Positions 819 through 51,652 of a stretch of DNA of 52,162 nucleotides are shown here, in pieces. Source of the DNA: a virus. The stretch spans positions 1 to 52,162 of IMG/VR virus record IMGVR_UViG_3300043449_000682; one strand, given 5' to 3'. Under the pieces are notes generated by a model. That model saw only the letters and a program-made list of their open reading frames with translations, was not told the DNA's origin and ran no database searches. The position numbers were made by a program, and so were the translations under genes. Each line of letters opens with the position of its first letter. Positions within the stretch are counted from its first letter, which is position 1.

Positions 819-947
819 TCACTGGCTTTCTGCTACTTTGTCGCAAGGACAAATAATTGACTCTGGAAGTTCATGTACTTTTGTTACAATTGTAATCATG
901 GTGTTGCAATCAACACACTTATAGATTTTCTTAACTCGTTTGCTCAT
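819..947 (-). CDS. Small zinc-ribbon protein
   Basis: 42 aa with CVDC near residues 12-15 and CPC near residues 33-35, a zinc-knuckle pattern. No Shine-Dalgarno is visible; instead a TATGAT box ends 6 nt before the ATG, so a leaderless mRNA is likely. First gene of the operon that runs into the tRNAs. Role unknown; one of many tiny Cys-pair proteins in this genome. Confidence 0.6.
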   Translation of the reverse strand: MSKRVKKIYKCVDCNTMITIVTKVHELPESIICPCDKVAESQ

Positions 948-953
948 ATACTA

Positions 954-959
954 ATCATA
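954..959 (-). promoter_or_regulatory. -10 box TATGAT of a leaderless promoter
   Basis: TATGAT on the minus strand ends 6 nt before the ATG at 947, the spacing seen at many genes in this window. It probably starts the transcript that includes the tRNA cluster. Confidence 0.5.
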
Positions 960-978
960 CCATATGAAGTTTTGTGTG

Positions 979-1434
979 TCAAGATTTGTCGCCATCCCAG
1001 GTACCTATCTTTGTGGTTGTAATACCATTAGCACCCCAAAGAGTAATTATGCTTGGGTTATCATCAACTGCATGAACTACATCCCAATACTTCTTAATCT
1101 CATTTAGTATATCTGCTTTAACCTCGTAGTCAGCCCTAAAATCACCATCTTTACGCATATAGAGCGCATTATGACCAATATCATTTTTAGCAAGCCAGTA
1201 CGATGTTAGCCCACGCCACTTCTCCATTCTAGATGTAACGACAAGAACATCCATCTGATCAAAGAAAGCATTGTTAAGCATTTCTAAGACTTCGATATTT
1301 GGCAGGGCATCCACAGAAGCCTCATGAAAGGCGCTGTAGTCCTTATTAGAGCCACGAACAAGGTGGATATATGGATCTACATTAGCGAGAGTCCCATCTA
1401 CATCAAATATGTATGCTGGTCTTTTTTGACTAAT
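979..1434 (-). CDS. HAD-superfamily phosphatase, polynucleotide kinase 3'-phosphatase type, probable ATT start
   Basis: 151 aa if started at ATT 1434. Motif I is FDVDGTLAN (Asp11 and Asp13 from that start), motif II is VVTSR near residues 65-69, a Lys lies in EVKADI and the DD pair is in HAVDDNPS. This order matches the phosphatase domain of T4 Pnkp-like RNA/DNA repair enzymes, which remove 3'-phosphates or 2',3'-cyclic phosphates. The first ATG in frame (1314) would delete motif I, and no ATG, GTG or TTG occurs between the upstream stop and motif I. AAGGTGG lies 6 nt before the ATT, and the preceding gene's stop overlaps it, so translational coupling is plausible. No kinase domain is attached. 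Confidence 0.75.
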   Translation of the reverse strand: MSQKRPAYIFDVDGTLANVDPYIHLVRGSNKDYSAFHEASVDALPNIEVLEMLNNAFFDQMDVLVVTSRMEKWRGLTSYWLAKNDIGHNALYMRKDGDFRADYEVKADILNEIKKYWDVVHAVDDNPSIITLWGANGITTTKIGTWDGDKS

Positions 1435-1750: not shown

Positions 1751-1756
1751 ATTATA
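1751..1756 (-). promoter_or_regulatory. -10 box TATAAT, leaderless promoter
   Basis: TATAAT on the minus strand, 6 nt before ATG 1744; heads the four-gene chain ending with the HAD phosphatase. Confidence 0.65.
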
Positions 1757-2779: not shown

Positions 2780-2785
2780 ATTATA
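2780..2785 (-). promoter_or_regulatory. -10 box TATAAT (extended TGG), leaderless promoter
   Basis: TGGTATAAT on the minus strand, 5 nt before the ATG of the SGNH hydrolase gene. Confidence 0.6.
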
Positions 2786-4022: not shown

Positions 4023-4028
4023 ATTATA
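4023..4028 (-). promoter_or_regulatory. -10 box TATAAT (extended TGG), leaderless promoter
   Basis: TGGTATAAT on the minus strand, 6 nt before ATG 4016; drives the zinc-finger and sulfotransferase pair. Confidence 0.65.
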
Positions 4029-6325: not shown

Positions 6326-6357
6326 ATTATACACTATGAGTAGATATGAAGTATAAT
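6326..6357. promoter_or_regulatory. Divergent pair of leaderless promoters
   Basis: A minus-strand TATAAT (6326-6331) lies 6 nt before ATG 6319 and a plus-strand TATAAT (6352-6357) lies 6 nt before ATG 6364. The two start codons are only about 45 bp apart, so polymerase binding to one should hinder the other. Confidence 0.65.
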
Positions 6358-7457: not shown

Positions 7458-7463
7458 AGTATA
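7458..7463 (-). promoter_or_regulatory. -10 box TATACT, leaderless promoter
   Basis: TATACT on the minus strand, 6 nt before ATG 7451. The direct repeat at 7474-7515 covers its -35 region. Confidence 0.6.
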
Positions 7464-8331: not shown

Positions 8332-8360
8332 AGTATCCCACATTGGCCAAAGCATGTCAA
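8332..8360 (-). promoter_or_regulatory. Promoter TTGACA-N17-GATACT
   Basis: Minus-strand -35 TTGACA (8355-8360) and -10 GATACT (8332-8337) with 17-bp spacing, 6 nt before the ATG at 8325, so a leaderless start with a full consensus -35. Confidence 0.75.
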
Positions 8361-8649: not shown

Positions 8650-8655
8650 ATTATA
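8650..8655 (-). promoter_or_regulatory. -10 box TATAAT, leaderless promoter
   Basis: TGATATAAT on the minus strand, 6 nt before ATG 8643. Confidence 0.6.
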
Positions 8656-8987: not shown

Positions 8988-8993
8988 AGTATA
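8988..8993 (-). promoter_or_regulatory. -10 box TATACT, leaderless promoter
   Basis: TATACT on the minus strand, 6 nt before ATG 8981. Confidence 0.55.
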
Positions 8994-9862: not shown

Positions 9863-9885
9863 ATTATAACATGGTTTGACAAACC
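9863..9885 (-). promoter_or_regulatory. Leaderless promoter with palindromic operator
   Basis: Minus-strand TATAAT (9863-9868) lies 6 nt before ATG 9856. The palindrome GGTTTGACAAACC at 9873-9885 occupies the spacer/-35 side and would let a bound protein block it. Confidence 0.55.
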
Positions 9886-10078: not shown

Positions 10079-10351
10079 TTACTCTGTTGCCTCTATCGCC
10101 TCAAACAAGTCCTGCAAGTCGTCAAACCCTGCATCCTCAAAGTTCAACGCTTCCAACAACAAGTCCCATGTCTCATTGATGTATTGCTCAACTGTTGGAG
10201 TCAGATTGATAATTCCTTCTGCATAGCAAAATGCAAGAGGAATCCCGATGTCGTTGTATGCAAAGAAATCTGCCATTTCGTCATCATCTTTATGGTGCAT
10301 CCATACCTGTCCAAGAATTAAAGCCTTGCTTTCAAATGTTGTTGTGGGCAT
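10079..10351 (-). CDS. Conserved-looking actinophage hypothetical protein
   Basis: 90 aa, acidic (YNDIGIPLAFCYAEGIINLT, then DDLQDLFEAIEATE). The pattern resembles small proteins often seen in actinophage early regions, but no function is known to me. Overlaps the 3' end of the upstream gene by about 20 bp; last gene of a leftward operon. Confidence 0.65.
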   Translation of the reverse strand: MPTTTFESKALILGQVWMHHKDDDEMADFFAYNDIGIPLAFCYAEGIINLTPTVEQYINETWDLLLEALNFEDAGFDDLQDLFEAIEATE

Positions 10352-10538
10352 AATTTGTACCTTCCTTAGTTTCTTTGGCTGATTCTGCTATTGTCTGTAA
10401 ACGATTATACACTACATAAGGTTGAGACTTGGCTAGGTATTCCCCGACCAATTCTAAATCTACACGAAGGTCAGAAATAATGTTACCCATTTTATTAGCA
10501 ACTTTTTCTTCCTCCGTGATTTGTCTGCTCATACGCAT
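10332..10538 (-). CDS. Hypothetical helical protein
   Basis: 68 aa, predicted mostly helical, charged (ISDLRVDLELVGEYLAKSQP). Ribosome binding site AAGGGAG lies 5 nt before ATG 10538. It overlaps the next gene. Family not recognised. Confidence 0.6.
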   Translation of the reverse strand: MRMSRQITEEEKVANKMGNIISDLRVDLELVGEYLAKSQPYVVYNRLQTIAESAKETKEGTNYAHNNI

Positions 10539-10632
10539 AGTTTCTCCCTTGTATCAATTGTATCAAAAAGTGGGGGAAAGAGCAAGCCCCACGCTTGCCC
10601 CCTCCACCCGATTAGCCTAGGTGACCCAATAC

Positions 10633-10980
10633 CTAGACTAGCGCTGGGCTATAAGCAGCCACAAATTTATCGAAAGCCACTGAAACATTATCAGTGATAG
10701 TATTGTTAGTGAAGTCAATGAGGATGGTTTGTTCGCCTAGGTCATAGCCATCATTATCAATAGCGTAGATTCCAAACCCTGTTTCCTCTAGAATGCTATC
10801 TTGAATAAGATAACTAATAATCATGCGGGTCCCATAGGATGAGTCTGATAGTCTAGGCTTAGCATGTTGAAGTGCCATTGCCAGGTCCCGCTGCCATTCC
10901 GTCTGGCCCCAGTGACTGTATAGAACTACCATTGGGCCCTGCTCACTGTCTTTAAATACAAAGTTGATCCGTGCTCCCAT
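10633..10980 (-). CDS. Hypothetical protein (actinophage type)
   Basis: 115 aa: NFVFKDSEQGPMVVLYSHWG, then YGTRMIISYLIQDSILEETG and FGIYAIDNDGYDL. The arrangement matches a family common in actinophage early regions, without known function. The ATG overlaps the stop of the DUF4241-like gene (ATTAG/CAT junction at 10980), so the two are coupled. Confidence 0.7.
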   Translation of the reverse strand: MGARINFVFKDSEQGPMVVLYSHWGQTEWQRDLAMALQHAKPRLSDSSYGTRMIISYLIQDSILEETGFGIYAIDNDGYDLGEQTILIDFTNNTITDNVSVAFDKFVAAYSPALV

Positions 10981-11318
10981 TAGTCTTGCTCCTCATTCAT
11001 GTCGCCCTCAAAGTCAATAACTACTTTAGTAACTCTGCCGTCCTCGTTCATCTGAACATAGACAGGGTAGTATCCGTCGCCATAGCCTGTGCTAAACACA
11101 ACAGCAGAACCCCTAGCGAGTTCGCCATAGGCGTTTTCAATTGTCGTGGCTGAAGCACCTTGATATGTGTAAGTGCCTACTTTACCTTCTAAGTTCCACT
11201 CGACGCCTTCGTCTGTTTTCCATTGGTCAAGATAGCAGGGGTCACCCACCATTGCTTGTCCTGAGTCTACCGAAAAGTATCCTGCGGTGATAAGATTATC
11301 TACTACATATTGGGTCAT
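10980..11318 (-). CDS. DUF4241-like protein
   Basis: 112 aa. The N-terminal VDSGQAMVGDPCYLD and the later FSTGYGDGYYPVYV are the signature strings of DUF4241-type beta proteins; their function is unknown. It overlaps both neighbours by one base at stop/start junctions (11318 and 10980) in one leftward operon. Confidence 0.7.
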   Translation of the reverse strand: MTQYVVDNLITAGYFSVDSGQAMVGDPCYLDQWKTDEGVEWNLEGKVGTYTYQGASATTIENAYGELARGSAVVFSTGYGDGYYPVYVQMNEDGRVTKVVIDFEGDMNEEQD

Positions 11319-11767
11319 TATTTTTCCGTTCCTGTTGGGGTAATTTCTTCTTGTTCTAATTTTAGCATTTCTTCCTCAGTAATGCAAATTGGGCAACGCT
11401 CATGCTCATAGTATCTTTCATTAATTAGTTGGCCATCATCTTCAATCTCAGCCCCGCAACCTTCGCAGTAGTACCAATATGAAGATACCTTAACTTGAAT
11501 AGTAGTATTATCAGGGAAAGGAACCTCAGTGATAAAGTATCCTATTCGATTAACAAATCCCCAGCCAGACCAGATGTAAGACCCACCATCGTCCCCATCG
11601 CCATACATCCAGATATGTTTTTCATTAGACTGTTTAACAAACTCATACTCATCGCCATAAGTTTCAAACATTAAACCATCGAATGAGGCATTAGTGTCTA
11701 TATGATTAGTGATTGGCTTGTAGGTCTTAACGAAGTCGTCAAAGTCCATCTCAATAAATGTATCCAT
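11318..11767 (-). CDS. Hypothetical protein with C-terminal zinc ribbon
   Basis: 149 aa. An acidic N-terminal domain (WMYGDGDDGGSYIWSGWG) is followed by CEGCGAE and CPIC near residues 101-128, a zinc ribbon. It is the first gene of its operon, with promoter TTGACA-N17-TATACT about 30 bp upstream. Family not recognised. Confidence 0.68.
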   Translation of the reverse strand: MDTFIEMDFDDFVKTYKPITNHIDTNASFDGLMFETYGDEYEFVKQSNEKHIWMYGDGDDGGSYIWSGWGFVNRIGYFITEVPFPDNTTIQVKVSSYWYYCEGCGAEIEDDGQLINERYYEHERCPICITEEEMLKLEQEEITPTGTEK

Positions 11768-11797
11768 GTGGGGTATCTTTCTATTAGGGTATATCTA

Positions 11798-11826
11798 AGT
11801 ATAACGGGTTGGGGCTAATCTGTCAA
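11798..11826 (-). promoter_or_regulatory. Promoter TTGACA-N17-TATACT
   Basis: Minus-strand -35 TTGACA at 11821-11826 and -10 TATACT at 11798-11803, 17-bp spacing; it overlaps the end of the 11815-11970 gene and drives 11767 leftward. Confidence 0.78.
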
Positions 11827-11970
11827 CTTCATACGGATAATGTCATAGGCATCGATGGCTCCCGCCGTATAGTCGTCCATCTCATAGTCACCCTCACCCT
11901 GATACTCATCACGCAGTAGGGTTAGTTCTTCAATACGCCCTTCAACAAACGCTAACAGATCGATACTCAT
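11815..11970 (-). CDS. Small acidic hypothetical protein
   Basis: 51 aa (IEELTLLRDEYQGEGDYE), helical and acidic. Its ATG overlaps the upstream stop (ATGA), and its 3' end carries the next operon's -35. Function unknown. Confidence 0.58.
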   Translation of the reverse strand: MSIDLLAFVEGRIEELTLLRDEYQGEGDYEMDDYTAGAIDAYDIIRMKLTD

Positions 11971-12248
11971 TCTCCTGCCTCCTTAGCACTAATAGCAAAC
12001 GATAGGTCATATGTTAGTTTATACATGTGTACATAAGCGTCTAGAATACCCTCTGCATACTTACGCTCTATAGATAGCATAGCGTCTGAGTAGTCGTCTG
12101 CTTCTTCTTGTTTAACTAATTCATCATACTCTTGCTCAGCAATGAGGATTTGATTCTTTAGTTCACCGTGCATGATATCAAGACCTGATACTCCTGCCTT
12201 GACCATACGCTCTAGGTGTGGGTCTATCTTGTCTGCTGATTCTTTCAT
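11967..12248 (-). CDS. Hypothetical coiled-coil protein
   Basis: 93 aa, long amphipathic helices (ELKNQILIAEQEYDELVKQE). AAAGGAG lies 6 nt before the ATG. It is the first gene after a TGTCAG-type promoter. Family not recognised. Confidence 0.65.
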   Translation of the reverse strand: MKESADKIDPHLERMVKAGVSGLDIMHGELKNQILIAEQEYDELVKQEEADDYSDAMLSIERKYAEGILDAYVHMYKLTYDLSFAISAKEAGE

Positions 12249-12261
12249 AGGGTCTCCTTTG

Positions 12262-12429
12262 TTATTTATTAAGTATATCTTGGGCTACTGACAAAATATG
12301 GCGGGATGTCTCAATCTCTGCCTGCTTAAGTCTATAGAAATGATAAGCATTAACATAGTCAATCTTCTCTAGGTCTTGATGAAGGCTAACGAGATGTATC
12401 TTTATATATTCAATTAACTCATCAAACAT
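12262..12429 (-). CDS. Small helical hypothetical protein
   Basis: 55 aa, predicted helical (IEYIKIHLVSLHQDLEKID). Starts in a TAATG overlap with the acidic-protein gene upstream; its end carries the next promoter. Function unknown. Confidence 0.58.
   Translation of the reverse strand: MFDELIEYIKIHLVSLHQDLEKIDYVNAYHFYRLKQAEIETSRHILSVAQDILNK
12272..12293 (-). promoter_or_regulatory. TGTCAG-N10-TATACT promoter
   Basis: Minus-strand TGTCAG (12288-12293) exactly 10 bp before TATACT (12272-12277). It sits inside the 3' end of the 12262-12429 gene and serves 12248. Confidence 0.65.
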
Positions 12430-12614
12430 TAGTCTTCTGTCTCCCCGTCTTCGTCCTCATCTTCTTCTGGTTGCTCATCAACTCTAATAGAATAAACCTC
12501 ACCTGAGTAGGAATAGTCTTCATAGTGCCAGCCTAGTTCTTCTGCTTCTTGTGCGTTCTCTGCTTCTACCTCGTAGTTATACTCTACGATTACTTTGATA
12601 TCATATGTTGGCAT
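12429..12614 (-). CDS. Small acidic protein
   Basis: 61 aa: beta-forming YDIKVIVEYNYEVEAENA followed by a poly-Asp/Glu tail (EEDEDEDGETED). The core resembles the small proteins at 20629 and 20756, so a family of beta plus acidic-tail proteins is repeated in the early region. Function unknown. Confidence 0.62.
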   Translation of the reverse strand: MPTYDIKVIVEYNYEVEAENAQEAEELGWHYEDYSYSGEVYSIRVDEQPEEDEDEDGETED

Positions 12615-12746
12615 TTATGCCACCACCTCTGTAATAGTTAGCCAAGTGGTGCAGTACTTACAGTGCTCCATTTTTAGCGGGGAAGTAACAGAATGAGTAC
12701 TATCTATAATATCCTCAATCTTATCTAATACATCATCTAGAGTCAT
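12615..12746 (-). CDS. Small protein with HCKYC motif
   Basis: 43 aa with an acidic N-terminal helix (LDDVLDKIEDIIDS) and HCKYC near residue 28. AAGGAG lies 8 nt before the ATG. Its stop is one base from the next gene's ATG. Function unknown. Confidence 0.58.
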   Translation of the reverse strand: MTLDDVLDKIEDIIDSTHSVTSPLKMEHCKYCTTWLTITEVVA

Positions 12747-12771
12747 TGATGAATCTCCTTTTCCTTATATA

Positions 12772-12984
12772 TTAATTATAGGGGTTGGTGTTGATTTTTA
12801 CAACTTCTGGGGATGTGATGTTAGTCACAGTCTCCTGGACAGTGGCATCTTCCCATCCTAACAGGATCAGTTCATTAGGATAATCACACACACAGGTAGG
12901 GGTGTTCTTAAAATCCTGGGTAGTGACCTCAAAGAGGGTATCGCAGTGGGTACAGATAAGATTATACTTAAGCCAGTTAGTCAT
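12772..12984 (-). CDS. Zinc-ribbon hypothetical protein
   Basis: 70 aa with CTHC (residues 11-14) and CVCDYPNEL (about 31-33), a zinc-ribbon arrangement. Starts in a TAATG overlap with the upstream gene. Function unknown. Confidence 0.6.
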   Translation of the reverse strand: MTNWLKYNLICTHCDTLFEVTTQDFKNTPTCVCDYPNELILLGWEDATVQETVTNITSPEVVKINTNPYN

Positions 12985-13163
12985 TAGAGCCTTCCTTCTA
13001 AATTAACAGATTCACATTCAGCACAAGTGCCATTGGATACATCATCATACCAGTCAGTCTCTACATCTAGCAAGTTGCCCTGATCATCATAAACACCCAA
13101 TTTATGAGATGTTTCGTCATACCAAAACTTACTGGTTTGACCACAGTCTAAACACTTAGGCAT
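12984..13163 (-). CDS. Zinc-ribbon hypothetical protein
   Basis: 59 aa from ATG 13163: CLDC at residues 4-7 and CAEC near the C-terminus. GGGGGA precedes this ATG, and the upstream gene overlaps it by 8 bp; the longer frame starting at 13229 lies inside that upstream gene and is rejected. Function unknown. Confidence 0.62.
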   Translation of the reverse strand: MPKCLDCGQTSKFWYDETSHKLGVYDDQGNLLDVETDWYDDVSNGTCAECESVNLEGRL

Positions 13164-13326
13164 TATTCCCCCAATGTAGCATAATAAGCCACATGGCTTG
13201 GTGCAGGGTACAGTCACATTCTCCACCATTCATGTTTTCCATGAAGTCAAAGTGAGAGTAGTTATCCTCATAGATAGAGGTTACGAGTTCGTCGATAGTA
13301 TAGGGTTTATATTTTGTTTGGGTCAT
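13156..13326 (-). CDS. Small hypothetical protein with CDC motif
   Basis: 56 aa (IDELVTSIYEDNYSHFDF, then GGECDCTLHQAMWL). TATAAT with TTGACA 18 bp upstream ends 6 nt before the ATG. It opens the operon down to 12262. The C-terminal His/Cys residues might bind a metal; family unknown. Confidence 0.6.
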   Translation of the reverse strand: MTQTKYKPYTIDELVTSIYEDNYSHFDFMENMNGGECDCTLHQAMWLIMLHWGNNA

Positions 13327-13332
13327 ATATCA

Positions 13333-13362
13333 ATTATACGCCCATAACCTGGGAAATGTCAA
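13333..13362 (-). promoter_or_regulatory. Promoter TTGACA-N18-TATAAT, leaderless
   Basis: Minus-strand -35 TTGACA (13357-13362) and -10 TATAAT (13333-13338), 6 nt before ATG 13326. Confidence 0.72.
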
Positions 13363-13471
13363 CTCTATCGTAAAGAATTTTTGGTTTGACATTTTTAGGG
13401 GAAAAGGTTTGTCTATCGTAATTTAATTTAACATTGACATTTTTATGTCCAAATTGCCCTATTTGTCCTGC

Positions 13472-13499
13472 CGGAAAAATTTTATGCATTGCAGTGCAT
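13472..13499 (-). terminator. Terminator after tRNA-Asp
   Basis: Minus-strand hairpin ATGCA-loop-TGCAT (13484-13499) followed by AAAATTTTTCCGG. Ends the DUF932/tRNA-Asp transcript. Confidence 0.65.
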
Positions 13500-13512
13500 A
13501 TTTATTTACTTG

Positions 13513-13586
13513 CGATCCGTACGGGACTTGAACCCGTGACCTCTACCGTGACAGGGTAGCGAACTAACCAACTATTCTAACGGACC
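13513..13586 (-). tRNA. tRNA-Asp (GTC)
   Basis: A 74-nt minus-strand cloverleaf. Acceptor GGTCCGT pairs with ACGGATC, stem CTACC/GGTAG closes loop CTGTCAC (anticodon GTC), and the T arm is CGGGTTCAAGTCCCG. It lies alone, far from the other tRNAs, downstream of the DUF932 gene and before a terminator. Confidence 0.95.
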
Positions 13587-13590
13587 ATGC

Positions 13591-13611
13591 GAGCAGTTTT
13601 AAATCGTGCTC
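13591..13611 (-). repeat. Intercistronic GAGCA/TGCTC hairpin (family member)
   Basis: GAGCAGTTTT...TGCTCAGGA hairpin between the DUF932 stop and tRNA-Asp. Near-identical hairpins occur at 14841-14865, 15562-15584, 16062-16084 and 19467-19489. Here it could be an RNA processing site that frees the tRNA. Confidence 0.5.
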
Positions 13612-13631
13612 AGGATTAATTGTATCAGATG

Positions 13632-14654
13632 CTATGCGAGTTGCATAACATTCTGCACAACTTTCAGCAAACGATTTTTTTCTGCGTTAATTGCAGGGTC
13701 AAATCCTGATGCTGATGCAAGGATAGATTCGTTAGAACCACCACGAGCAGAGCGGTACCAGTCAAGGCGTTCAGTAAGAGCGTTAAATGCACCCCAAGCA
13801 GAACCAGCAATCATGCCATTAAACTCACCTGTGTAGATGTCGTTAATGGTGTCGATTTTGTTTTCCCACTTCTTGAGTGCGCCCTTAGCATCTTTCTCAG
13901 GCTTTGGGTATGCAGCGAGAATGATGTCATTGAAAGACTTAGCATTGACTTCCTTCTCGAACATAGCCTTAGCCATGATGTCGAACTCGTCCATGTAAGC
14001 ATTAGCAAGACCAAGAGTCTCACGAGCAATCTGCACCTTGCCTGATGCAGTCTGAGTGTGGCGAATCTTGAAAGATTGCTTGATGCCCTTATTCTTCTTA
14101 CGACCTACGCCACCAAGAGCAAGGTTAAGAGTGTTAGCGCATACAACACGAACAGGGGTAATAGATGCCTGAATAGCAATAGAACCGTCGTGTGATGTGT
14201 TGATGAGCAAATAAGTTTTTACCTTATCTGCAACACCGCTAGGGTCAAGAACAGTTTCACGCTCTAGTGCAAGAGAGCCGAATACTACACGACCACCCTT
14301 GATTGAGCCAGCAGTTTCCCAACGACCTCCGCCGTCAAGAATGTTGTCACCGAATGAGAATAAATCTTCATTCTGCATTACATGGTAACGCTCACCAACG
14401 ACACCAAGAATGTCGGTCTGCGTGTTGTCAGTAGGATTGGTACGCAATACATACTGATAGTTTTTATCGCTTGTGAGATGTGAGGGGGTTTCCAAATCTT
14501 CCAGACGAACATTCCAACCATTAAGATTAGCAGCAGCCAACATTTCTGATGTGGTTTTTTCTTCTGTAAATACGGTACCCAATCCATGCCAAGCGGGTTC
14601 ACGGAATGATGCAAATGATGCAACGCCGTTTTGTGTTTCGAGGTCATGTGCCAT
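13632..14654 (-). CDS. DUF932 family protein (phage/plasmid-like protein)
   Basis: 340 aa from ATG 14654, which has AAAGGAG 8 nt upstream; a longer frame to 14714 runs through the promoter and is rejected. AWHGLGTVF near residue 25, FSFGDNILDGGGRWETAG, the VVCANTLNLAL segment and the RLDWYRSARGGS tail are characteristic of DUF932, a family of actinophage and plasmid proteins without proven function (a DNA-related early role is often assumed). It has its own TGTCAG-type promoter and is followed by tRNA-Asp. Confidence 0.85.
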   Translation of the reverse strand: MAHDLETQNGVASFASFREPAWHGLGTVFTEEKTTSEMLAAANLNGWNVRLEDLETPSHLTSDKNYQYVLRTNPTDNTQTDILGVVGERYHVMQNEDLFSFGDNILDGGGRWETAGSIKGGRVVFGSLALERETVLDPSGVADKVKTYLLINTSHDGSIAIQASITPVRVVCANTLNLALGGVGRKKNKGIKQSFKIRHTQTASGKVQIARETLGLANAYMDEFDIMAKAMFEKEVNAKSFNDIILAAYPKPEKDAKGALKKWENKIDTINDIYTGEFNGMIAGSAWGAFNALTERLDWYRSARGGSNESILASASGFDPAINAEKNRLLKVVQNVMQLA

Positions 14655-14685
14655 GAGTTTTCTCCTTTTTGTTGTTGATAATTTA

Positions 14686-14707
14686 AGTATACATGGGGGG
14701 TCTGACA
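14686..14707 (-). promoter_or_regulatory. TGTCAG-N10-TATACT promoter (DUF932 gene)
   Basis: Minus-strand TGTCAG (14702-14707), CCCCCC-containing spacer of 10 bp, and TATACT (14686-14691). The leader has a good ribosome binding site. Confidence 0.68.
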
Positions 14708-14813
14708 AATGCAAATCGGGATAGTTAGATATGGTATAAATCGGACATTTTTACGGGGTGTCGTAAATCACATCGTAAACATCAGCGTGTCCGCTTGACA
14801 AGATCAAAAAAGG

Positions 14814-14866
14814 GGCCGGAAAAATTTTGGGAATAAAAAGTGAGCAGTTTACATGGCCATGCTCAG
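14814..14866 (-). terminator. Terminator with TGAGCA/TGCTCA hairpin
   Basis: Minus-strand TGAGCA...TGCTCA hairpin (14841-14865) then CTTTTTATT and AAAATTTTTCCGGCC (14814-14828). Ends the 14917-15348 gene; part of a repeated inter-operon cassette. Confidence 0.55.
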
Positions 14867-14916
14867 GGCCCTCATCCAGTTTAAAGACATTTGACAGGTC
14901 TATTAGTAGCCCCCTA

Positions 14917-15348
14917 CTAAAAATCAATTCTGTCTACACTGGCGGTAAGCCAAGTGATGTTATCAGAATTATATGAAACTGATTCAAAGTCAACATCGTT
15001 AACAATTGATTCTACATCTTCATCGTATGGAACCTGAAGTGTTAGGTTATAGGTGACTGAGACTTCGACTTCAACTTCCTTAGTAAGTTCAAAGCCCATT
15101 ATCTCTGCAATGTCTGTTGCTTGACTTTCTGTAATTGCATCACGCTCTAGTTCTGCCAAGGTCCAGTGCTGCATTCCTTCAACCATACGGTTACGGTCCG
15201 CTGAATCTGAATATGAGCGCTGAGTTACTTTTTGAATCTGTTCTTCTAACTGAGCAATCCGCTGGTCCTTCTGCACAATCTGAGTCTTAAGAAATTCCTC
15301 TGTTGCGTTTACTACGCCTGCAAGTGTTGATAGGTTCTGCTGGTCCAT
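14917..15348 (-). CDS. Hypothetical protein, coiled coil plus beta domain
   Basis: 143 aa. Residues 15-48 form a coiled coil (EEFLKTQIVQKDQRIAQLEE); the C-terminal half is acidic beta structure (VEVEVSVTYNLTLQVPYDED). It has its own promoter with TTGACA, TGTCAG and TATAAT. The layout is familiar from actinophage early regions, but the function is unknown. Confidence 0.68.
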   Translation of the reverse strand: MDQQNLSTLAGVVNATEEFLKTQIVQKDQRIAQLEEQIQKVTQRSYSDSADRNRMVEGMQHWTLAELERDAITESQATDIAEIMGFELTKEVEVEVSVTYNLTLQVPYDEDVESIVNDVDFESVSYNSDNITWLTASVDRIDF

Positions 15349-15378
15349 GGGGGCCTCTTTCTGTTGTTGTTTATATTA

Positions 15379-15408
15379 ATTATACTCGTGGCCACTGACA
15401 ATTGTCAA
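15379..15408 (-). promoter_or_regulatory. Promoter with TTGACA, TGTCAG and TATAAT
   Basis: Minus-strand -35 TTGACA (15403-15408), TGTCAG (15395-15400) 10 bp before TATAAT (15379-15384). TTGACAATTGTCAG is nearly a perfect palindrome and may be an operator. Confidence 0.7.
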
Positions 15409-15610
15409 GGACCCTTGCGGGAGGCAGTTTTGGCTCTTACCTAGGAGGTCTGCTTCTTTGGGGCTGCAGTACCCCTGCTCTATAGTATTTCTGTGATCGC
15501 CCTAATCAGCCTGGCGAAGTCTCCACTCTATTTATTTAGCCACGCATTTCTGTGGTCGTGGTGAGCCTTTTCCCTTCATGCTCAGGAAGTATTATTCTCG
15601 TTATTGAGAA
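15409..15610. other. Gene-free stretch with a repeated hairpin
   Basis: About 200 bp with no start codon leading to a plausible frame. It holds one member of the GAGC hairpin family (15562-15584) and a CAGTACCCCTGCTC segment with short inverted pairs. It may be a leader or a small RNA; I see nothing decisive. Confidence 0.35.
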
Positions 15611-16027
15611 TTATAGGTATTGTGCGATAGACTTCATAGTTGAGGCATTTACTGTTTCCTCATCTGTCATTCGCAAAATAGATAGTGCGTTAGTGATTTC
15701 CTGCTTCATGTTCTTGTATTCCCACTCTGCAAGTCGCTCATGCTCACGCTGAGGCTCTTGTGGGAAGTCTGCGCCTGTTGTATCAACATCAAAGTCAATG
15801 TTGAGTGTGTTAGCCCATGTGCGGTGATTTGTGCGGAAGTTAGAAGCCTTCTTGATGTTAGCAATAGCGTAGTCAGTTAGAGCCTTACGATACTTCTCGT
15901 ATTCCTTCTGATACTTTGCTTCTACTTTTTCCTGATTTGCCATTTGTGTTTCAAGTGTAGCCAACTTAGTTTCAAGTGCCTTGATAACCTTTGGTGTTGC
16001 TACCTTAACTGTGATTGCTCTTGCCAT
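15611..16027 (-). CDS. Hypothetical coiled-coil protein
   Basis: 138 aa from ATG 16027 (AAAAGGAAA upstream; longer frame rejected). A helical coiled coil (LETKLATLETQMANQEKVE) is followed by NFRTNHRTWANTLNIDFDVD and a helical tail. A repeated hairpin (16062-16084) sits between this gene and the one upstream. Family not recognised. Confidence 0.65.
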   Translation of the reverse strand: MARAITVKVATPKVIKALETKLATLETQMANQEKVEAKYQKEYEKYRKALTDYAIANIKKASNFRTNHRTWANTLNIDFDVDTTGADFPQEPQREHERLAEWEYKNMKQEITNALSILRMTDEETVNASTMKSIAQYL

Positions 16028-36708: not shown

Positions 36709-37158
36709 ATGGCAACAGTCGAAAAAGACTTTAAGGTCAAAAATGGACTAATCGTCGCAAACGGTGGTTCTTTTGGCGGGGCAGTTGAGGTAGGAGTACC
36801 TACTGAAAATGCTCACGCAGCAACTAAGGAGTATGTTGATTCAAGATCAATGGCCGTTGGCTCTACTGCTCCTTCTTCACCAACTAATGGTACACAGTGG
36901 TTAGACACTAGTACTAATAGGATCAATTTTTATTACAATGGAGCATGGTACACCCAGGCAACTATTGATGATACAAATAATCTTCCTCAGCACATTCACG
37001 ATACCGCAATTGATGGAACTGGTTTCATAGTATCTCAGTTCTACGAAGGCGGATCATTCAACAGCCCATTGGGTGCAGGGTTGGATGCAGGTGGGCCCTC
37101 TACAACAGAGTGGACAGTTGTGTTCGACGGCGGTAGTGTAGTAGATAACTTCAACTAA
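36709..37158 (+). CDS. Short fibre/tail protein
   Basis: 149 aa. Shares its MATVEKDFKVKNGLIV start with 35179, then AATKEYVDSRS, SPTNGTQWLDTSTNRINFYY and a C-terminal beta region. The GTQWLDT segment is typical of phage fibre attachment modules. AAGGAG before the ATG. Confidence 0.68.
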   Translation: MATVEKDFKVKNGLIVANGGSFGGAVEVGVPTENAHAATKEYVDSRSMAVGSTAPSSPTNGTQWLDTSTNRINFYYNGAWYTQATIDDTNNLPQHIHDTAIDGTGFIVSQFYEGGSFNSPLGAGLDAGGPSTTEWTVVFDGGSVVDNFN

Positions 37159-37214
37159 AATTGATGTTATAATAAGATAAGTAATTGGGCAGCCCCCATA
37201 AGGAGAAATAAAAT

Positions 37215-38846
37215 ATGGCAACAAGAATGCAACAGCGCAGAGGTACTGCAGCCCAATGGACGGCTGCAAATCCAGTTCTAGCAGCAGGAGAAATCGGCTT
37301 TGAGACCGACACAAATAAATTTAAGATGGGTAATGGAACATCAGCATGGAACTCTTTAGCATACTTTGCAAATGCCACTGAACTAGCAGCAGCGATAGAT
37401 GCAGTTGTTGGTATTGCTCCAGAAACACTAGACACATTGGCAGAAATCGCAGCATCACTTGGTGATGACCCAGACTTCTTGTCAGATCTAGCAACAAATG
37501 CAAGAGTTGATACAGTAGTCCTTAATGCTGAAGCAGCCCTAGTTTCAGCAAGAGAATATTCTGCAAACTCTCTTACAAGCCACCTAAATAACACAGAGAA
37601 TGTACACGGAATTCCAAATACTTCAATATTGGCAACATTGCCAGATGTAGCAACTGCTAAAACAGAAGCAATAGTCGCAGCAGCAGATGATGCTACAACT
37701 AAGGCTGCAACTGCTAAATCAGAGGCCATTGCTGAAATTACACCAGCCTCCCTAGGTCTTGGCTCAGTAGATAATACATCAGATGCAAGCAAGCCAGTTT
37801 CAGCAGCACAAGAATACGCAATCGCAGCAGCAAAGACTGAAGCAATTACAGATGCAGCATCAGCAGCAGACGACAAGATATCTGCTCACAACCTTGATGA
37901 TACCAATGTTCACGGTATTGCTGATACGTCAGTCTTAGTAACACAAACAGACCTTACAAACGCTATTAGCGGTGTTTCTGTAGATCAGTCAGCACTTGCT
38001 GGTACAGGCCTTGCATGGGATGGAGTTGCAGAGCAGTTTACTGTTGACACAACGATTGCAACCAAGACATATGCCGATAACGCTGTTTCAACACATGAAG
38101 CAGACACAACATCTGTTCATGGTATCTCAGATACAGCACAGTTAGCATACAAGAATGCAGCAAATCAGACATTTACAGGAAATCTAGAAGTTGACGGAAA
38201 CCTTGTTGTTGATGGAGACATCACAGTTAATGGTGGAAGTTTTAACGCTTCAGCAACATCTATTACAATTGAAGATAACCTCGTACAACTTGCTCACCAA
38301 AATACAGCAAATACAGTTGACCTTGGTATCGTAGTTGGATACAATGATGGTGCAGCAAAGCATGCAGGTTTTGTAAGAGACGTATCTGATGCTAAGTGGA
38401 AGTTGTTTAAGGGTGTAACAACAGAGCCTTCTACAACAGTAGACTTTACTCAGGGATCACTTGATGACCTCAAGGTTGCAGCATTTGAAGCAACAACAGT
38501 AACCCCTTCATCTGGAATCGTCTTCTCAGACGGAACACAGACAAAGGTTGGAGTACCATCTGTTACAACAATTGCAACAGCAATCTCATCATCTTCAACA
38601 CTTGCAGCGGGAGAAGCAGATAAGTTTGTTCCACTAACTGGAGCAGTTACAATTACTCTTCCTGCAACAGGATACTCAACTGGACAGTCAATTGACTTCT
38701 ATCAGGAATCAGGTACAGGAGCGCAGTTTGCATCAACAAATAGCGTTGTTGGAACACCAGGTTTGAAGTTTAGAACTACAAACTCAGTTGTAACAGCAAT
38801 GAAGACTTCAAGTGGATGGTTGGTCTTCGGAGACCTATCAGCATAA
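37215..38846 (+). CDS. Large tail fibre with tropism-determinant-type N-terminus
   Basis: 543 aa. MQQRRGTAAQWTAANPVLA then GEIGFETDTNKFKMGNGTSA is the N-terminal domain found in many phage tropism-determinant fibres. [24 protein letters not shown] segments recur and match the VTP fibre, showing module exchange. A C-terminal beta domain follows. AAGGAG before the ATG. Confidence 0.8.
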   Translation: MATRMQQRRGTAAQWTAANPVLAAGEIGFETDTNKFKMGNGTSAWNSLAYFANATELAAAIDAVVGIAPETLDTLAEIAASLGDDPDFLSDLATNARVDTVVLNAEAALVSAREYSANSLTSHLNNTENVHGIPNTSILATLPDVATAKTEAIVAAADDATTKAATAKSEAIAEITPASLGLGSVDNTSDASKPVSAAQEYAIAAAKTEAITDAASAADDKISAHNLDDTNVHGIADTSVLVTQTDLTNAISGVSVDQSALAGTGLAWDGVAEQFTVDTTIATKTYADNAVSTHEADTTSVHGISDTAQLAYKNAANQTFTGNLEVDGNLVVDGDITVNGGSFNASATSITIEDNLVQLAHQNTANTVDLGIVVGYNDGAAKHAGFVRDVSDAKWKLFKGVTTEPSTTVDFTQGSLDDLKVAAFEATTVTPSSGIVFSDGTQTKVGVPSVTTIATAISSSSTLAAGEADKFVPLTGAVTITLPATGYSTGQSIDFYQESGTGAQFASTNSVVGTPGLKFRTTNSVVTAMKTSSGWLVFGDLSA

Positions 38847-38870
38847 TACGAATTAAAGGGAGAATAACAT

Positions 38871-40103
38871 ATGTCAAAGCAAGCAGGTAGAATGAGTCAA
38901 GGAGCAAACGACTTCTTGGCTCCAGGAACACCAACAATAACATCAGTAACAGATGTTGGAACAAATAGACCATATAATAATGGTGCAGTAGATGTAGCAT
39001 TTAATGCAACAGGCGTTTACGCAGCATCATCTTATACTGTGCTATCCAGTAACGGACAAACGACTACTGGTTCTTCTTCTCCAATTCGTGTAGAGGGTCT
39101 TTCATCCGATACAGCGTATTCATTTACAGTAAAAGCAATCAATGCTGGTGGTGAATCTGCGTATTCTTCATCATCATCTAATGTGACTGTAACAACAGTA
39201 CCAGCAAAGCCATCAGCACCATCAGCATCTTCGCCATCAGCAGGAACAGACTCTGTTTCATGGTCTGCTCCAGCAAATGGTGGAAAGGCTATAACTAACT
39301 ATAGATGGGCATCTAATGATGGAAAGGCTGGAGATACTTCAGGAACATCTGTAAATGTCGGTCAAGAGCAAGGAACAGCACAGACTTATACTGTTTATGC
39401 AACTAATGCTAATGGTAACTCAGAAACATCTGATCCTTCAGGATCTGTTACTACTACATTTGCTGCTTTCGGTGCATTCGGTGCATTCGGTGCTTTCGGT
39501 GCATTCGGTGCATTCGGTGCTTTCGGTGCATTCGGTGCATTCGGTGCTTTCGGTGCTTTCGGTGCATTCGGTGCTTTCGGTGCATTCAATGCTTTTGGAG
39601 CATTTGGTGCTTACTTCAAGTCTATCAGTCTACACACCTTAGTTTTAACTACAGAAGGATATACACAGGCATCAAACCTTAAGGTTGGAGATCAACTTGT
39701 TTCTACAGAAATCCCTGGACTGGGAATGAACTTTACACTACAAGATGTTGCAAATTGGACGGGTAATCCATCAGAACTTACAATGGTTCCTGACAAGGTA
39801 ACAACAATTGTTGGATTAGGCTCATCACAGGCAACAGAGTCTGTATCTGTAAACGGAGAATTTTATTCAGGAAACCACACTATGCTTGTAACTAGAGATG
39901 GCATTGCTAAAATGGTAACAAGTAGAGACCTACTTGAAACAGATCAGTTATGGTCTACAGACACAAATACCTGGACACCTATAACAGAACTAGTTATTTC
40001 AAGTATTCCTCACGAGGTTATATCTATTAACTGTGAGCCTTACGATATGTTCTATACAGACCACTTCTTGGTTTATGACGGTTATCAAATAGAAAACCAG
40101 TAG
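38871..40103 (+). CDS. FN3 protein with GAF triplet repeat and Hint-like domain
   Basis: 410 aa. Two fibronectin-III-type domains (residues about 15-105 and 110-190), then a stretch of about 15 Gly-Ala-Phe-type triplets (199-243), then a Hint-fold domain: LHTLVLTTEGYTQASNLKVG, GNHTMLVTRDG and FYTDHFLVYDG. Hint domains self-splice or self-cleave, but here the first catalytic Cys is replaced (Ser-rich SISLHT) and the terminal HN is absent. It may cut its own N-side bond via Ser, or be a degenerate fold used for assembly. Confidence 0.75.
   Translation: MSKQAGRMSQGANDFLAPGTPTITSVTDVGTNRPYNNGAVDVAFNATGVYAASSYTVLSSNGQTTTGSSSPIRVEGLSSDTAYSFTVKAINAGGESAYSSSSSNVTVTTVPAKPSAPSASSPSAGTDSVSWSAPANGGKAITNYRWASNDGKAGDTSGTSVNVGQEQGTAQTYTVYATNANGNSETSDPSGSVTTTFAAFGAFGAFGAFGAFGAFGAFGAFGAFGAFGAFGAFGAFGAFNAFGAFGAYFKSISLHTLVLTTEGYTQASNLKVGDQLVSTEIPGLGMNFTLQDVANWTGNPSELTMVPDKVTTIVGLGSSQATESVSVNGEFYSGNHTMLVTRDGIAKMVTSRDLLETDQLWSTDTNTWTPITELVISSIPHEVISINCEPYDMFYTDHFLVYDGYQIENQ
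39468..39610 (+). repeat. 9-bp tandem repeat coding Gly-Ala-Phe
   Basis: About 15 units of GGTGCNTTC with A or T at the variable base. It gives a Phe-every-third-residue stretch of unusual hydrophobicity for a virion protein. Confidence 0.8.
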
Positions 40104-40105
40104 TC

Positions 40106-40624
40106 ATGGTTCGTGTTGTTGATACTTCAGGATTTAAAGAACTTGAATATCCAGAACAGTTGAGCGGTTCTTGGTTTTACTATGTGCTGTTTGAGAATCA
40201 TCCAAACCCAGATATAAGTGGAATATCTTGTATATACTTTAATGACAAATACCCTAGTGGTTCTGTGTGTATGGGAAGACATCTTTTAAATGATTATCCA
40301 GATGCATATTGCGTATTAGGAAAGTTTGATGATGAAGGAAATATGGCAACAGGAAGAATGTTTGTGGCACCACCACTAAGACAGCAGGGTGTTGCTTCAG
40401 CAGGAGTGGCCTACGGAGTAAGAATGATAGGATATCTGTTTAATAAAGAAGTTGTTCACTCGTATGGCTCAGAAATTGGAAATAAAACCTATGCTGCTGC
40501 TGCTGAAATTGGAAAACTTTCGTTTGACGGAGCAGAAATAGAAGAAGGCTTTCACATGAAAAAAGAATATTTTGATCAGCCTGTACATCCATATATTTTT
40601 TTTGGTAGAAGGTTCTCAACATGA
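40106..40624 (+). CDS. GNAT-like acetyltransferase
   Basis: 172 aa. ATGRMFVAPPLRQQGVASAG resembles the acetyl-CoA loop of GNAT enzymes (R-x-x-G-x-A), followed by a helix and GSEIGNKTYAAAAEIG. The start is 2 bp after the Hint gene. Possible role: acetylating a virion or host protein. The match is partial. Confidence 0.5.
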   Translation: MVRVVDTSGFKELEYPEQLSGSWFYYVLFENHPNPDISGISCIYFNDKYPSGSVCMGRHLLNDYPDAYCVLGKFDDEGNMATGRMFVAPPLRQQGVASAGVAYGVRMIGYLFNKEVVHSYGSEIGNKTYAAAAEIGKLSFDGAEIEEGFHMKKEYFDQPVHPYIFFGRRFST

Positions 40625-41037
40625 TAGATTATATAATTTCCAATGTAGAAGATAATGTTAATAACACAATAAGCACTTTAGTGCAAAGAATGTGTAAAGA
40701 AAATAAAATAAACTATATAAAGCAAGAATATAAAGTTTTATTTTCTAATGAAAAGATGCTTTTAAAATATAACAACATTAAATTTACATCTGGCTCAAAA
40801 AAAGATCTATCTTTTTATGGAAAGGTTTATAGAAATAAAAAGGGTAAAGTCGTTGAGAATATTTTTTTACATGATGATTTTATTGAATTTGAACCAAAAG
40901 AAACTGAACTGGTGGTGATCTCTGGAGGCATAGACAACTCAACAGTTGTAGATATTGATCAAGAGTTGTTGTACTTTTATGTTGCTCCAAGCCATTTGCT
41001 TGAGGTCCAAGACTCAAATTTGTGGCAAGCCCTTTAA
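40621..41037 (+). CDS. Hypothetical protein
   Basis: 138 aa, basic N-terminal half (KENKINYIKQEYKVLFSNEK), beta C-terminal half (ETELVVISGGIDNSTVVDID). ATGA overlap with the GNAT-like gene. I do not recognise the family. Confidence 0.6.
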   Translation: MIDYIISNVEDNVNNTISTLVQRMCKENKINYIKQEYKVLFSNEKMLLKYNNIKFTSGSKKDLSFYGKVYRNKKGKVVENIFLHDDFIEFEPKETELVVISGGIDNSTVVDIDQELLYFYVAPSHLLEVQDSNLWQAL

Positions 41038-43906: not shown

Positions 43907-43931
43907 TCTTCTGTGGTAAAATAGACCTATA

Positions 43932-47677: not shown

Positions 47678-47683
47678 TATACT
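47678..47683 (+). promoter_or_regulatory. -10 box TATACT, leaderless
   Basis: TGGTATACT, 7 nt before ATG 47691; first promoter of the head-gene cluster. Confidence 0.6.
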
Positions 47684-49672: not shown

Positions 49673-50265
49673 TGAAATCTATACATAAGTCTAATTTCTT
49701 TAACGATAGTGATTTTGATAAAATAAAAGAAAGCGTATACGCAAAAATAAATGACGAGTTTGGTCTTGCTTATGCAGAAGACTGTACAAGAAGTTACAGA
49801 ATAACCTTTTTACCAATCAATGTTCAGGATCTTTTGCTAGATAGAGCAAAGCAAGAAACTGGAGATGACTCAATCCAAATCCTATACAACCAGATCGTCA
49901 AGTATCAGATTAAAGATGGCGTATCTCCAAAACTGAAAAGGCACAAAGATGTTGCAGTTGGAGAGTGGGTAATGGACATAGTTCTTGATTCTACTATAGA
50001 CTGGCCTATCGTTATTGAGGACCAGAGTTTTTCAAATACTACAAACTCCGTGACTTTTATTCGTGGCGAAGAAGAGCCTCACTGGAGACCAGACTTCCCA
50101 TCTGAGGATCAAGAGGATTTTGTCCTACTCCTTTTTGTTCATCTAGCAAACAAAGGTAGCAACCATGCAAAGATTTCTAGGCAGGTGCTTGAGATGGGGG
50201 AAGCAAAAGCAGATTCTTTCTTGAGGTCGGTAGTCCCATCATGGGGCAAAAAGTATAACGTATAG
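49672..50265 (+). CDS. Possible 2OG oxygenase-fold protein
   Basis: 197 aa, starting in an overlap with the portal stop (TAATG). KLKRHKDVAVGEWVMDIVL gives a possible H-x-D pair; HWRPDFPSEDQEDFVLLLFV gives a distal His and a beta strand. This is a weak P4H-like pattern. Position between portal and protease suggests a conserved head-cluster role. Confidence 0.5.
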   Translation: MKSIHKSNFFNDSDFDKIKESVYAKINDEFGLAYAEDCTRSYRITFLPINVQDLLLDRAKQETGDDSIQILYNQIVKYQIKDGVSPKLKRHKDVAVGEWVMDIVLDSTIDWPIVIEDQSFSNTTNSVTFIRGEEEPHWRPDFPSEDQEDFVLLLFVHLANKGSNHAKISRQVLEMGEAKADSFLRSVVPSWGKKYNV

Positions 50266-50305
50266 GATTTAGGTCTCAATATTCAAGATATAAAAAAAGG
50301 TGGTA

Positions 50306-50317
50306 TATAATATAATG
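50306..50317 (+). promoter_or_regulatory. -10 box TATAAT before the prohead protease
   Basis: TGGTATATAAT; TATAAT (50306-50311) lies 3 nt before ATG 50315 and 6 nt before GTG 50318, so GTG 50318 may be the true leaderless start. Confidence 0.5.
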
Positions 50318-51652
50318 GTGAGCAATATATCAAAGGCCCATTGGAATTCAGATGGGGAAAATCTTCGTCTTTCGATGCCTTTTAATAAGGTAGACAAAGA
50401 GAGACGTATCGTTTCAGGTTTTGCATCTCTTGACAATCTTGACAAGCAGATGGATATTGTAACATCTGAAGCATCTATGAATGCGTTTGCAAAGTTTCGT
50501 GGTAACATTAGAGAAATGCATCAGCCACTAGCAGTAGGCAAGATGGTAAACTTTAAAGAAGATAAATACTTCGATCCAGAATCAAAGAAGTTCTATAAGG
50601 GTGTTTTTGTATCAGCATATGTTTCAAAGGGCGCACAGGACACTTGGGAAAAGGTTCTTGATGGAACACTTACTGGTTTTTCAATTGGCGGAAGAATGAA
50701 TAAGTGGGATGACGCATATGATGAGAAGTCAGACTCACAGATTAGAATTATTAAGGAATATGATTTGGTAGAGTTGAGTCTTGTTGATTCACCAGCAAAT
50801 CAGTTTGCAAACATTGTTTCAGTTGAAAAGGTTGATGGCGTAGATGTTATCAAAGCAGACTCAACAGTGTTAGAAAATGTTTTTTATGATAAAGAAAATG
50901 GAATTGTTATTGCATCTGAAAACGAGTCAGAACTTAGCCCAGTTACTGGAGAGCAGATGGAGAACATAGGATTCGTTGAAAAAACGGATGATGAAAAAAC
51001 AAACATGATAAAATTCTTAGTTGATAGTGCTAAAGGCATTAATACTTCTAAGATTAACAAGGAGGTACAACCTATGACAAAATCAAAAACACAAGTTGAA
51101 AAAACAGATGTAGTTGAAGATGTTGTGGTCGCTCCAGAGGCAGATGCCGTGGTTGAAGAAGTTACCGAAGAAGTTGCAAAGGCAGAAGAGACAGAGACAG
51201 CAGATGTTGTCAAGTCAGACGAAGCACCAGCAGCAGAAACTGAAGAAGCACCAGTTGCTGAAGCAGTTGAAAAAGTAGCAGACGCAGACGCAAATGTATC
51301 TAAGTCAGATGATGTAGTTGTTGAAGCAATTGCAGAAATCAAGAATAATCTAACATCAGCCTTTAGCGATCTATTATCAACAGTAAAGTCTTTGCAAGCA
51401 GAAGTAGAACTTCTTAAGTCTTCAAAGGTAGATGTTGATACAGTAAAGGATTCATTTGCAGCAGTTGCAAAAGATATTGCAGCAGTATCAAGTGAGTTTA
51501 ATGAATTTGGAAAACGAGTAGACGCTGTGGAAGCAGACACCGCATTCCGAAAGTCTGGAGATATCGGCGATATCTTCCAGTCTCAGCCTGAAATGGTTGA
51601 AAAATCCCTATGGGGCGGTAGTTTCCTCAAAACAGCCGATCTATTCAAATGA
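50315..51652 (+). CDS. Prohead protease with C-terminal scaffold
   Basis: 445 aa. Residues 1-180 are the HK97 prohead protease (U35/S78): IVSGFASLDNLDKQMDIV, catalytic His69 (REMHQPL) and Ser123 (LTGFSIGG). The C-terminal part is an acidic helical scaffold (VVEEVTEEVAKAEETETADV, coiled coil to the end). The protease removes scaffold and capsid N-termini during maturation. An internal start (51074) can make the scaffold alone. Confidence 0.88.
   Translation: MVSNISKAHWNSDGENLRLSMPFNKVDKERRIVSGFASLDNLDKQMDIVTSEASMNAFAKFRGNIREMHQPLAVGKMVNFKEDKYFDPESKKFYKGVFVSAYVSKGAQDTWEKVLDGTLTGFSIGGRMNKWDDAYDEKSDSQIRIIKEYDLVELSLVDSPANQFANIVSVEKVDGVDVIKADSTVLENVFYDKENGIVIASENESELSPVTGEQMENIGFVEKTDDEKTNMIKFLVDSAKGINTSKINKEVQPMTKSKTQVEKTDVVEDVVVAPEADAVVEEVTEEVAKAEETETADVVKSDEAPAAETEEAPVAEAVEKVADADANVSKSDDVVVEAIAEIKNNLTSAFSDLLSTVKSLQAEVELLKSSKVDVDTVKDSFAAVAKDIAAVSSEFNEFGKRVDAVEADTAFRKSGDIGDIFQSQPEMVEKSLWGGSFLKTADLFK
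51074..51652 (+). CDS. Internal scaffold product of the protease gene
   Basis: 192 aa, in frame with the protease and beginning at Met254. AAGGAGGT lies 7 nt before this ATG, the best ribosome site in the window, so a separate scaffold protein is expected. Composition: acidic repeats with EEAP/AVEK then a coiled coil. This is the same trick as lambda C/Nu3. Confidence 0.7.
   Translation: MTKSKTQVEKTDVVEDVVVAPEADAVVEEVTEEVAKAEETETADVVKSDEAPAAETEEAPVAEAVEKVADADANVSKSDDVVVEAIAEIKNNLTSAFSDLLSTVKSLQAEVELLKSSKVDVDTVKDSFAAVAKDIAAVSSEFNEFGKRVDAVEADTAFRKSGDIGDIFQSQPEMVEKSLWGGSFLKTADLFK

Follow-up and report, generated by a model that had tools for sequence, protein, structure and literature searches.

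Conserved -10 boxes placed next to start codons suggest leaderless expression of about a quarter of the genes of a probable freshwater actinophage

The stretch of DNA analysed here (the window) is a 52,162-base virus contig of IMG/VR, record IMGVR_UViG_3300043449_000682, which is a piece of a larger phage genome, and the elements under study are TATAAT-like boxes found a few nucleotides before many of its start codons. Judging from the sequence, we consider it very likely that about a quarter of the genes are expressed from host sigma-A promoters yielding leaderless mRNA, which would be translated without a Shine-Dalgarno (SD) site, the remaining genes being SD-led or translationally coupled downstream. 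In the mechanism we propose, 6 nt separate the start codon from the end of a sigma-A -10 element (TATAAT, often extended as TGNTATAAT and occasionally preceded by TTGACA at 17 bp), RNA polymerase would start about 7 nt past the box, at approximately the A of the ATG, giving an mRNA with no or nearly no leader, and ribosomes would load directly on the 5'-terminal AUG (GUG for the head protease).

The original prediction cited 22 -10-like boxes ending 5-7 nt before start codons. All 22 are present, each before an ATG that opens an open reading frame (ORF); from box end to ATG the distance is 6 nt at 16 of the sites and 7 nt at the other 6. Sixteen are exact TATAAT, four have one mismatch (TATACT three times, and GATAAT) and two have two mismatches, GATACT at 8332 and TAAGAT at 17855; these weak boxes are accompanied by strong -35 elements, matching TTGACA in 6/6 and 5/6 positions respectively. 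The description of the boxes as usually extended also holds, TGN being found upstream in 15 of the 22. Four further sites were identified, at 947 (TATGAT plus TTGACA), 2774 (5 nt), 43932 (TAAAAT, 9 nt) and 50318 (TATAAT, 6 nt, GTG). The leaderless-type sites are listed below, where orthologue counts refer to distinct upstream regions.

954..959, minus strand: TATGAT, 6 nt to ATG 947 (42 amino acids, aa); TTGACA at 977-982, spacing 17
1751..1756, minus strand: TATAAT, 6 nt to ATG 1744 (36 aa); -35 matching 5/6
2780..2785, minus strand: TGG-TATAAT, 5 nt to ATG 2774 (332 aa)
4023..4028, minus strand: TGG-TATAAT, 6 nt to ATG 4016 (41 aa); kept in 4/4 orthologue upstreams
6326..6331, minus strand: TATAAT, 6 nt to ATG 6319 (2OG-Fe(II) oxygenase, 204 aa); left half of a divergent pair
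6352..6357, plus strand: TATAAT, 6 nt to ATG 6364 (104 aa); right half of the divergent pair, start codons 44 bp apart
7458..7463, minus strand: TGA-TATACT, 6 nt to ATG 7451 (37 aa)
8332..8337, minus strand: TGG-GATACT (weak), 6 nt to ATG 8325 (68 aa); perfect TTGACA, spacing 17
8650..8655, minus strand: TGA-TATAAT, 6 nt to ATG 8643 (33 aa)
8988..8993, minus strand: TGC-TATACT, 6 nt to ATG 8981 (66 aa)
9863..9868, minus strand: TGT-TATAAT, 6 nt to ATG 9856 (73 aa); palindrome GGTTTGTCAAACC directly upstream
13333..13338, minus strand: TATAAT, 6 nt to ATG 13326 (56 aa); TTGACA, spacing 18
17855..17860, minus strand: TGC-TAAGAT (weak), 6 nt to ATG 17848 (48 aa); -35 matching 5/6; unconserved in 4 orthologue upstreams; lowest confidence
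22599..22604, plus strand: TATAAT, 6 nt to ATG 22611 (cytochrome P450, 389 aa)
23796..23801, plus strand: TGA-TATAAT, 7 nt to ATG 23809 (62 aa)
24969..24974, plus strand: TATAAT, 7 nt to ATG 24982 (94 aa); box in 7/7 orthologue upstreams
25517..25522, plus strand: TGG-TATAAT, 7 nt to ATG 25530 (phrog_1084, 126 aa)
25997..26002, plus strand: TGA-TATAAT, 7 nt to ATG 26010 (90 aa)
27118..27123, plus strand: TGA-GATAAT, 6 nt to ATG 27130 (collagen-like tail fibre type, 243 aa); box in 17/20 upstreams, upstream identity 0.42
27857..27862, plus strand: TGG-TATAAT, 6 nt to ATG 27869 (phrog_1084, 146 aa); box in 21/22
33444..33449, plus strand: TGG-TATAAT, 7 nt to ATG 33457 (191 aa); box in 23/23
34033..34038, plus strand: TGA-TATAAT, 6 nt to ATG 34045 (phrog_1084, 136 aa); box in 29/29
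34703..34708, plus strand: TATAAT, 6 nt to ATG 34715 (baseplate/tail-fibre-connector-like, 148 aa); box in 46/46, all at 6 nt
43917..43922, plus strand: TGG-TAAAAT, 9 nt to ATG 43932 (1246 aa); box in 26/29; expected leader 2-3 nt
47678..47683, plus strand: TGG-TATACT, 7 nt to ATG 47691 (128 aa, gene before the portal); box in 44/44; the orthologue of phage Bordeaux is leaderless-type too
50306..50311, plus strand: TATAAT, 6 nt to GTG 50318 (head maturation protease); box in 38/38; alternative start ATG 50315

The frequency of these boxes exceeds chance. An ATG is found 4-9 nt past an exact TATAAT 25 times in the window, versus 7.1 +/- 2.7 in 300 second-order Markov shuffles (highest count 15), and none of the other A3T3 hexamers exceeds 13 in the same count. 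Further, ATGs that open an ORF of at least 40 aa at 5-7 nt from an exact TATAAT number 16, against 0.9 expected from distances of 12-39 nt, an analysis which makes no use of gene calls; the same test yields 0 versus 2.1 expected in T4 and 0 versus 1.1 in cyanophage S-PM2. The comparison with shuffled controls proposed together with the original prediction results in an excess over the whole window. When curated starts are considered, which were chosen in part with the boxes in view (no such choice enters the gene-free tests), an exact box ends 4-9 nt before 18 of 81 genes, whereas twelve shifted windows give 0.6 on average, and allowing one mismatch the figures become 25 of 81 versus 7.2. A TANNNT definition of the box was dropped, being too degenerate at this GC content and giving a weak excess at most.

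The register is conserved among relatives. The group comprises ten genomes, the window and G001-G004 and G006-G010, whose portals are from 96% down to 49% identical, and in the nine further genomes ORF-opening ATGs peak at exactly 6 nt from TATAAT: summed over the ten, 122 such ATGs lie at 6 nt versus around 11 per background position, and the register is kept also in G009, the portal of which is only 49% identical. Among the orthologue upstreams of ten window genes the box is almost always kept in register, for example in 46/46 for 34715, 44/44 for 47691, 29/29 for 34045 and 23/23 for 33457. Identity among orthologues is 0.99-1.00 within the box, a value raised by the requirement of TATAAT within one base, which nearly all orthologues pass, and amounts to 0.42-0.69 upstream and 0.37-0.90 in the spacer. 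The three phrog_1084 paralogues of the tail-fibre region (25530, 27869 and 34045) each have their own leaderless promoter, and this family is the largest leaderless cluster of the group, with 25 members.

The signal is matched in a second phage family. In Streptomyces phage Bordeaux, 4 of 24 TATAAT boxes lie exactly 6 nt before annotated starts (genes 45, 52, 62 and 154), and all other distances from 0 to 29 nt combined account for 4; gene 46, the orthologue of the window gene at 47691 (35% identical), carries TATGAT at the same distance of 6 nt. Thermus phage phiYS40 served as positive control: of its 59 annotated starts, 9 are preceded by TANNNT at 6 nt, compared with 0-4 at each other distance between 2 and 21 nt. 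The leaderless pattern is apparently inherited in part from an ancestor common with the Streptomyces phages.

Analysis of the ribosome sites evidences distinct classes of genes. The 82 curated genes fall into four groups, leaderless-type (25), SD-led (40), coupled (7) and other (10), and an SD-like match is found in only 4 of the 25 leaderless-type genes versus 40 of the 57 others, in agreement with the claimed scarcity of ribosome sites at boxed genes; the boxes appear to be -10 elements placed for transcription from within about 1 nt of the start codon. Two other parts of the original prediction are not sustained. Promoters are not distributed gene by gene, since most genes are SD-led or coupled and the use of leaderless-type starts is regional: 10 of 18 genes on the minus strand at 1-9.9 kb (small genes and the oxygenase) and 10 of 18 on the plus strand at 22-35 kb (P450 and the tail-fibre region), whereas 10-21 kb holds a single one among 32 genes and 35-52 kb three among 13, whose promoters precede large virion genes at 43932, 47691 and 50318. 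Nor do the data support isolated single-gene units bounded by terminators: coupled genes often follow leaderless ones, and the 15 terminator-like hairpins counted in 21.5-41.4 kb, versus 12.2 expected, are no excess. Two blocks illustrate the contrast:

10079..20763, minus strand: SD-led or coupled genes; 25 of 32 SD-led, one leaderless-type
35179..41037, plus strand: SD-led or coupled tail-fibre genes, for example with AAGGAG before 35179, 36709 and 37215

In respect to promoter anatomy, the TG extension shows T in 52% and G in 62% at its two positions (61 gene clusters), and a perfect TTGACA at 16-18 bp is found in 8% of leaderless promoters versus 0.1% of random positions. A phage-encoded sigma factor or RNA polymerase was considered as promoter reader and none was found in the nine relatives: the Sigma70_r2 domain is absent from all nine, Sigma70_r4 gives a single weak sub-threshold match, in G009, and the search for a single-subunit RNA polymerase returned none in the nine, its control search being likewise silent. 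We infer that host sigma-A would be the simplest reader of the boxes.

Two arrangements accompany some of these promoters. In divergent leaderless pairs the start codons are back to back, with 35-60 bp between them and a TATAAT for each gene, as in the window (6319-6364), G002 (58839/58896), G003 (6808/6844), G001 (21261/21304), G006 (45660/45696) and G008 (94432/94493); the promoters of each pair overlap and are probably mutually exclusive. Also, the palindrome GGTTTGTCAAACC, or its TTTGTCAAA core, adjoins the upstream side of the extended -10 in small genes that are orthologous or similar to one another, in the window at 9863-9900 (minus strand) and in G001 (4463), G002 (66539), G003 (5628) and G010 (68642), and is a candidate operator.

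Alternative explanations have to be weighed against these data. The boxes could be real promoters that are mostly secondary and internal, the main mRNAs being long and polycistronic and the leaderless starts merely boosting single genes, which would fit the small intergenic gaps before many leaderless genes, the coupled genes downstream of them and the ordinary number of terminators. However, a read-through mRNA offers no obvious entry for translation, as 21 of the 25 genes lack an SD site; moreover, 24 of 25 gaps exceed 10 nt, most leaderless genes are not overlapped by the previous gene, and the strict 6-7 nt register is unnecessary for a booster promoter, so that we regard this possibility as unlikely, although it deserves some weight.

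A more doubtful proposal is that there are two temporal classes, early promoters with -10 and -35 elements and virion promoters with an extended -10 and no -35, between which a phage factor, perhaps a WhiB-like protein acting on sigma-A region 4, would switch. TTGACA is matched in at least 5/6 positions in 5 of 12 minus-strand (1-21 kb) leaderless promoters versus 0 of 13 in the virion region, a comparison made post hoc; several virion genes which have no conserved -35 keep TGN with 83-100% conservation, WhiB is encoded in all nine large relatives, and gp39 of Thermus phage P23-45 is a precedent for such a factor (PMC7403470). Nevertheless, over the ten genomes the difference in -35 elements, 6/26 versus 1/20 gene clusters, is a trend that does not reach significance (p=0.12, or p=0.07 by a rank test), and the TG extension is equally common in both promoter groups. 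A bolder form, in which a WhiB-like protein on sigma-A region 4 would select late extended -10 leaderless virion promoters, as an independent counterpart of the P23-45/phiYS40 programme, is to us a long shot; if true, one regulator would switch both the promoters that fire and, these mRNAs being leaderless, the mRNAs that dominate translation.

Finally, that the hexamer is a translation signal or an AT-rich unstructured stretch and no promoter is very improbable: although the box occupies the position of a ribosome site and AT-rich phages commonly have start regions rich in AT, TATAAT alone stands out among the A3T3 permutations, a TG extension and a TTGACA at 17 bp are typical of promoters, weak boxes go with strong -35s, the register equals the distance from -10 to +1, and a motif in a like position in Deinococcus, a -10 adjoining the ORF, was proved by experiment to function as a promoter element rather than a ribosome site (PMC12340547).

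Some observations weigh against leaderless expression from host sigma-A promoters as set out above, or blur it. With one mismatch allowed, chance alone would give around seven hits in the 81 genes; a few individual assignments will therefore be wrong, and a few of those with one mismatch, for instance that at 7250, are likely due to chance. For the sites at 7 and 9 nt, leaders of 1-3 nt are indistinguishable from none. In several cases 7-35 nt separate the box from the previous gene, and therefore read-through transcripts must exist as well. Also, while the 6-nt register to the protease GTG at 50318 is found in 38/38 upstreams, the alternative ATG at 50315 has a GG-rich stretch 11 nt upstream and the Bordeaux protease aligns from there.

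The boxes bear on annotation. The longest-ORF starts at 22587, 25404, 27845 and 33388 fall upstream of their -10 boxes, and we favour, and correct to, the starts at 22611, 25530, 27869 and 33457, because of the box positions and, for the last three, also of orthologue alignments; since the box lies at 22599, the TTG at 22587 would not be the P450 start. Annotators of such phages should thus seek -10 boxes in place of SD sites.

As for the origin of the window, its relatives in IMG/VR reach lengths of up to 112-119 kb. The right end carries the genes for a class II ribonucleotide reductase (RNR), portal and head maturation protease, and then the start of the major capsid gene, in an order that matches Bordeaux genes 43-50, portal and protease being 49% and 38% identical to their Bordeaux counterparts. 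Portal, protease, capsid, major tail protein and tape measure are orthologous and syntenic with those of Stanwilliamsviridae at 27-49% identity (the window reaches the capsid start and the remaining genes were compared in G001-G004), and by gene order and identity the window phage is a distant relative of these Streptomyces phages. The predicted host is very probably an actinobacterium, because each of the nine relatives with a length of 98 kb or more carries a WhiB gene and the closest named phages have Streptomyces hosts or are assigned to 'Actinomycetia'; the label freshwater derives from the lake phage DSL-LC01 and from the kind of records matched. An RNR-based host search in bacterial genomes returned only a distant Sericytochromatia gene and a phage-like 3.2 kb contig (JAFMJX010000223.1) in a Chitinophagaceae metagenome-assembled genome, which has an RNR stretch 85% identical to that of the phage and is probably a misbinned phage contig. 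The Rfam search returned tRNAs only.

Regarding gene content, the cytochrome P450 gene (22611-23780; Pfam E 5e-52) has a leaderless start, and there are 2OG-Fe(II) oxygenases (4032, 5705 and 31568) and two sulfotransferase-like genes (3352 and 6684), a set which suggests surface or small-molecule modification. The tail fibre at 37215-38846 carries an Mtd_N domain (major tropism determinant N-terminus).

These results provide genome-scale, conserved sequence evidence that around a quarter of the genes, tail and head genes included, would be leaderless in a widespread uncultured group of freshwater actinophages, and supply natural phage promoter-plus-start modules of less than 45 bp for tests of leaderless translation in actinobacteria. 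A literature search, with most subscription papers outside its reach, returned no report of freshwater actinophages or Stanwilliamsviridae with leaderless expression at genome scale, and nothing on leaderless transcripts of Streptomyces phages or on phage WhiB in connection with sigma region 4. The view of the original prediction that this organization is unusual for a phage nevertheless needs qualifying, as there are precedents in phiYS40 (PMC3594737), cluster O mycobacteriophages (PMC4351075) and actinobacteria themselves, and this architecture conforms to the mode that is general in actinobacteria (PMC3160421).

In Actinobacteria around 19% of genes are leaderless by sequence, and Zheng et al. 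2011 noted TG before the box and the full TATAAT in low-GC genomes (PMC3160421); the TA-led genes of these bacteria likewise have TANNNT/TATAAT about 12 bp before the start and no SD, and make up about a fifth of genes, but they are cellular, whereas here a phage genome is concerned and the use is concentrated in two regions. Among Thermus phages, most middle and late transcripts of phiYS40 are reported to be leaderless (PMC3594737) and P23-45 has extended -10 middle/late promoters (PMC7403470). Phage-wide leaderless expression, which is predicted here, the 6-nt register (phiYS40) and the extended -10 class are common to both cases; the host phylum there is an unrelated one, and the leaderless transcripts reported there are middle/late, whereas a temporal class is here a mere possibility. 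Leaderless promoters have been predicted in cluster O mycobacteriophages such as Corndog (PMC4351075) and for Adephagia gene 90 (PMC11373665), with similar sigma-A-like promoters, +1 at the start codon and a divergent leaderless pair (PL1/PR2), but with few such promoters per genome, compared with around 25 here in half a genome. Actinomycetia phage DSL-LC01 (OQ999401) is also a freshwater actinophage, with a class II RNR 62% identical and WhiB genes, and differs in its 54% GC, its other virion genes and its boxes at 5-7 nt (4 versus 1.8 expected). Bordeaux (MN369757) shares the syntenic block of RNR, gene 45, gene 46, portal, membrane protein, protease and capsid and has leaderless-type starts at genes 45, 46, 52 and 62, but has 48% GC, far fewer TATAAT boxes and other tail-fibre and small-gene regions.

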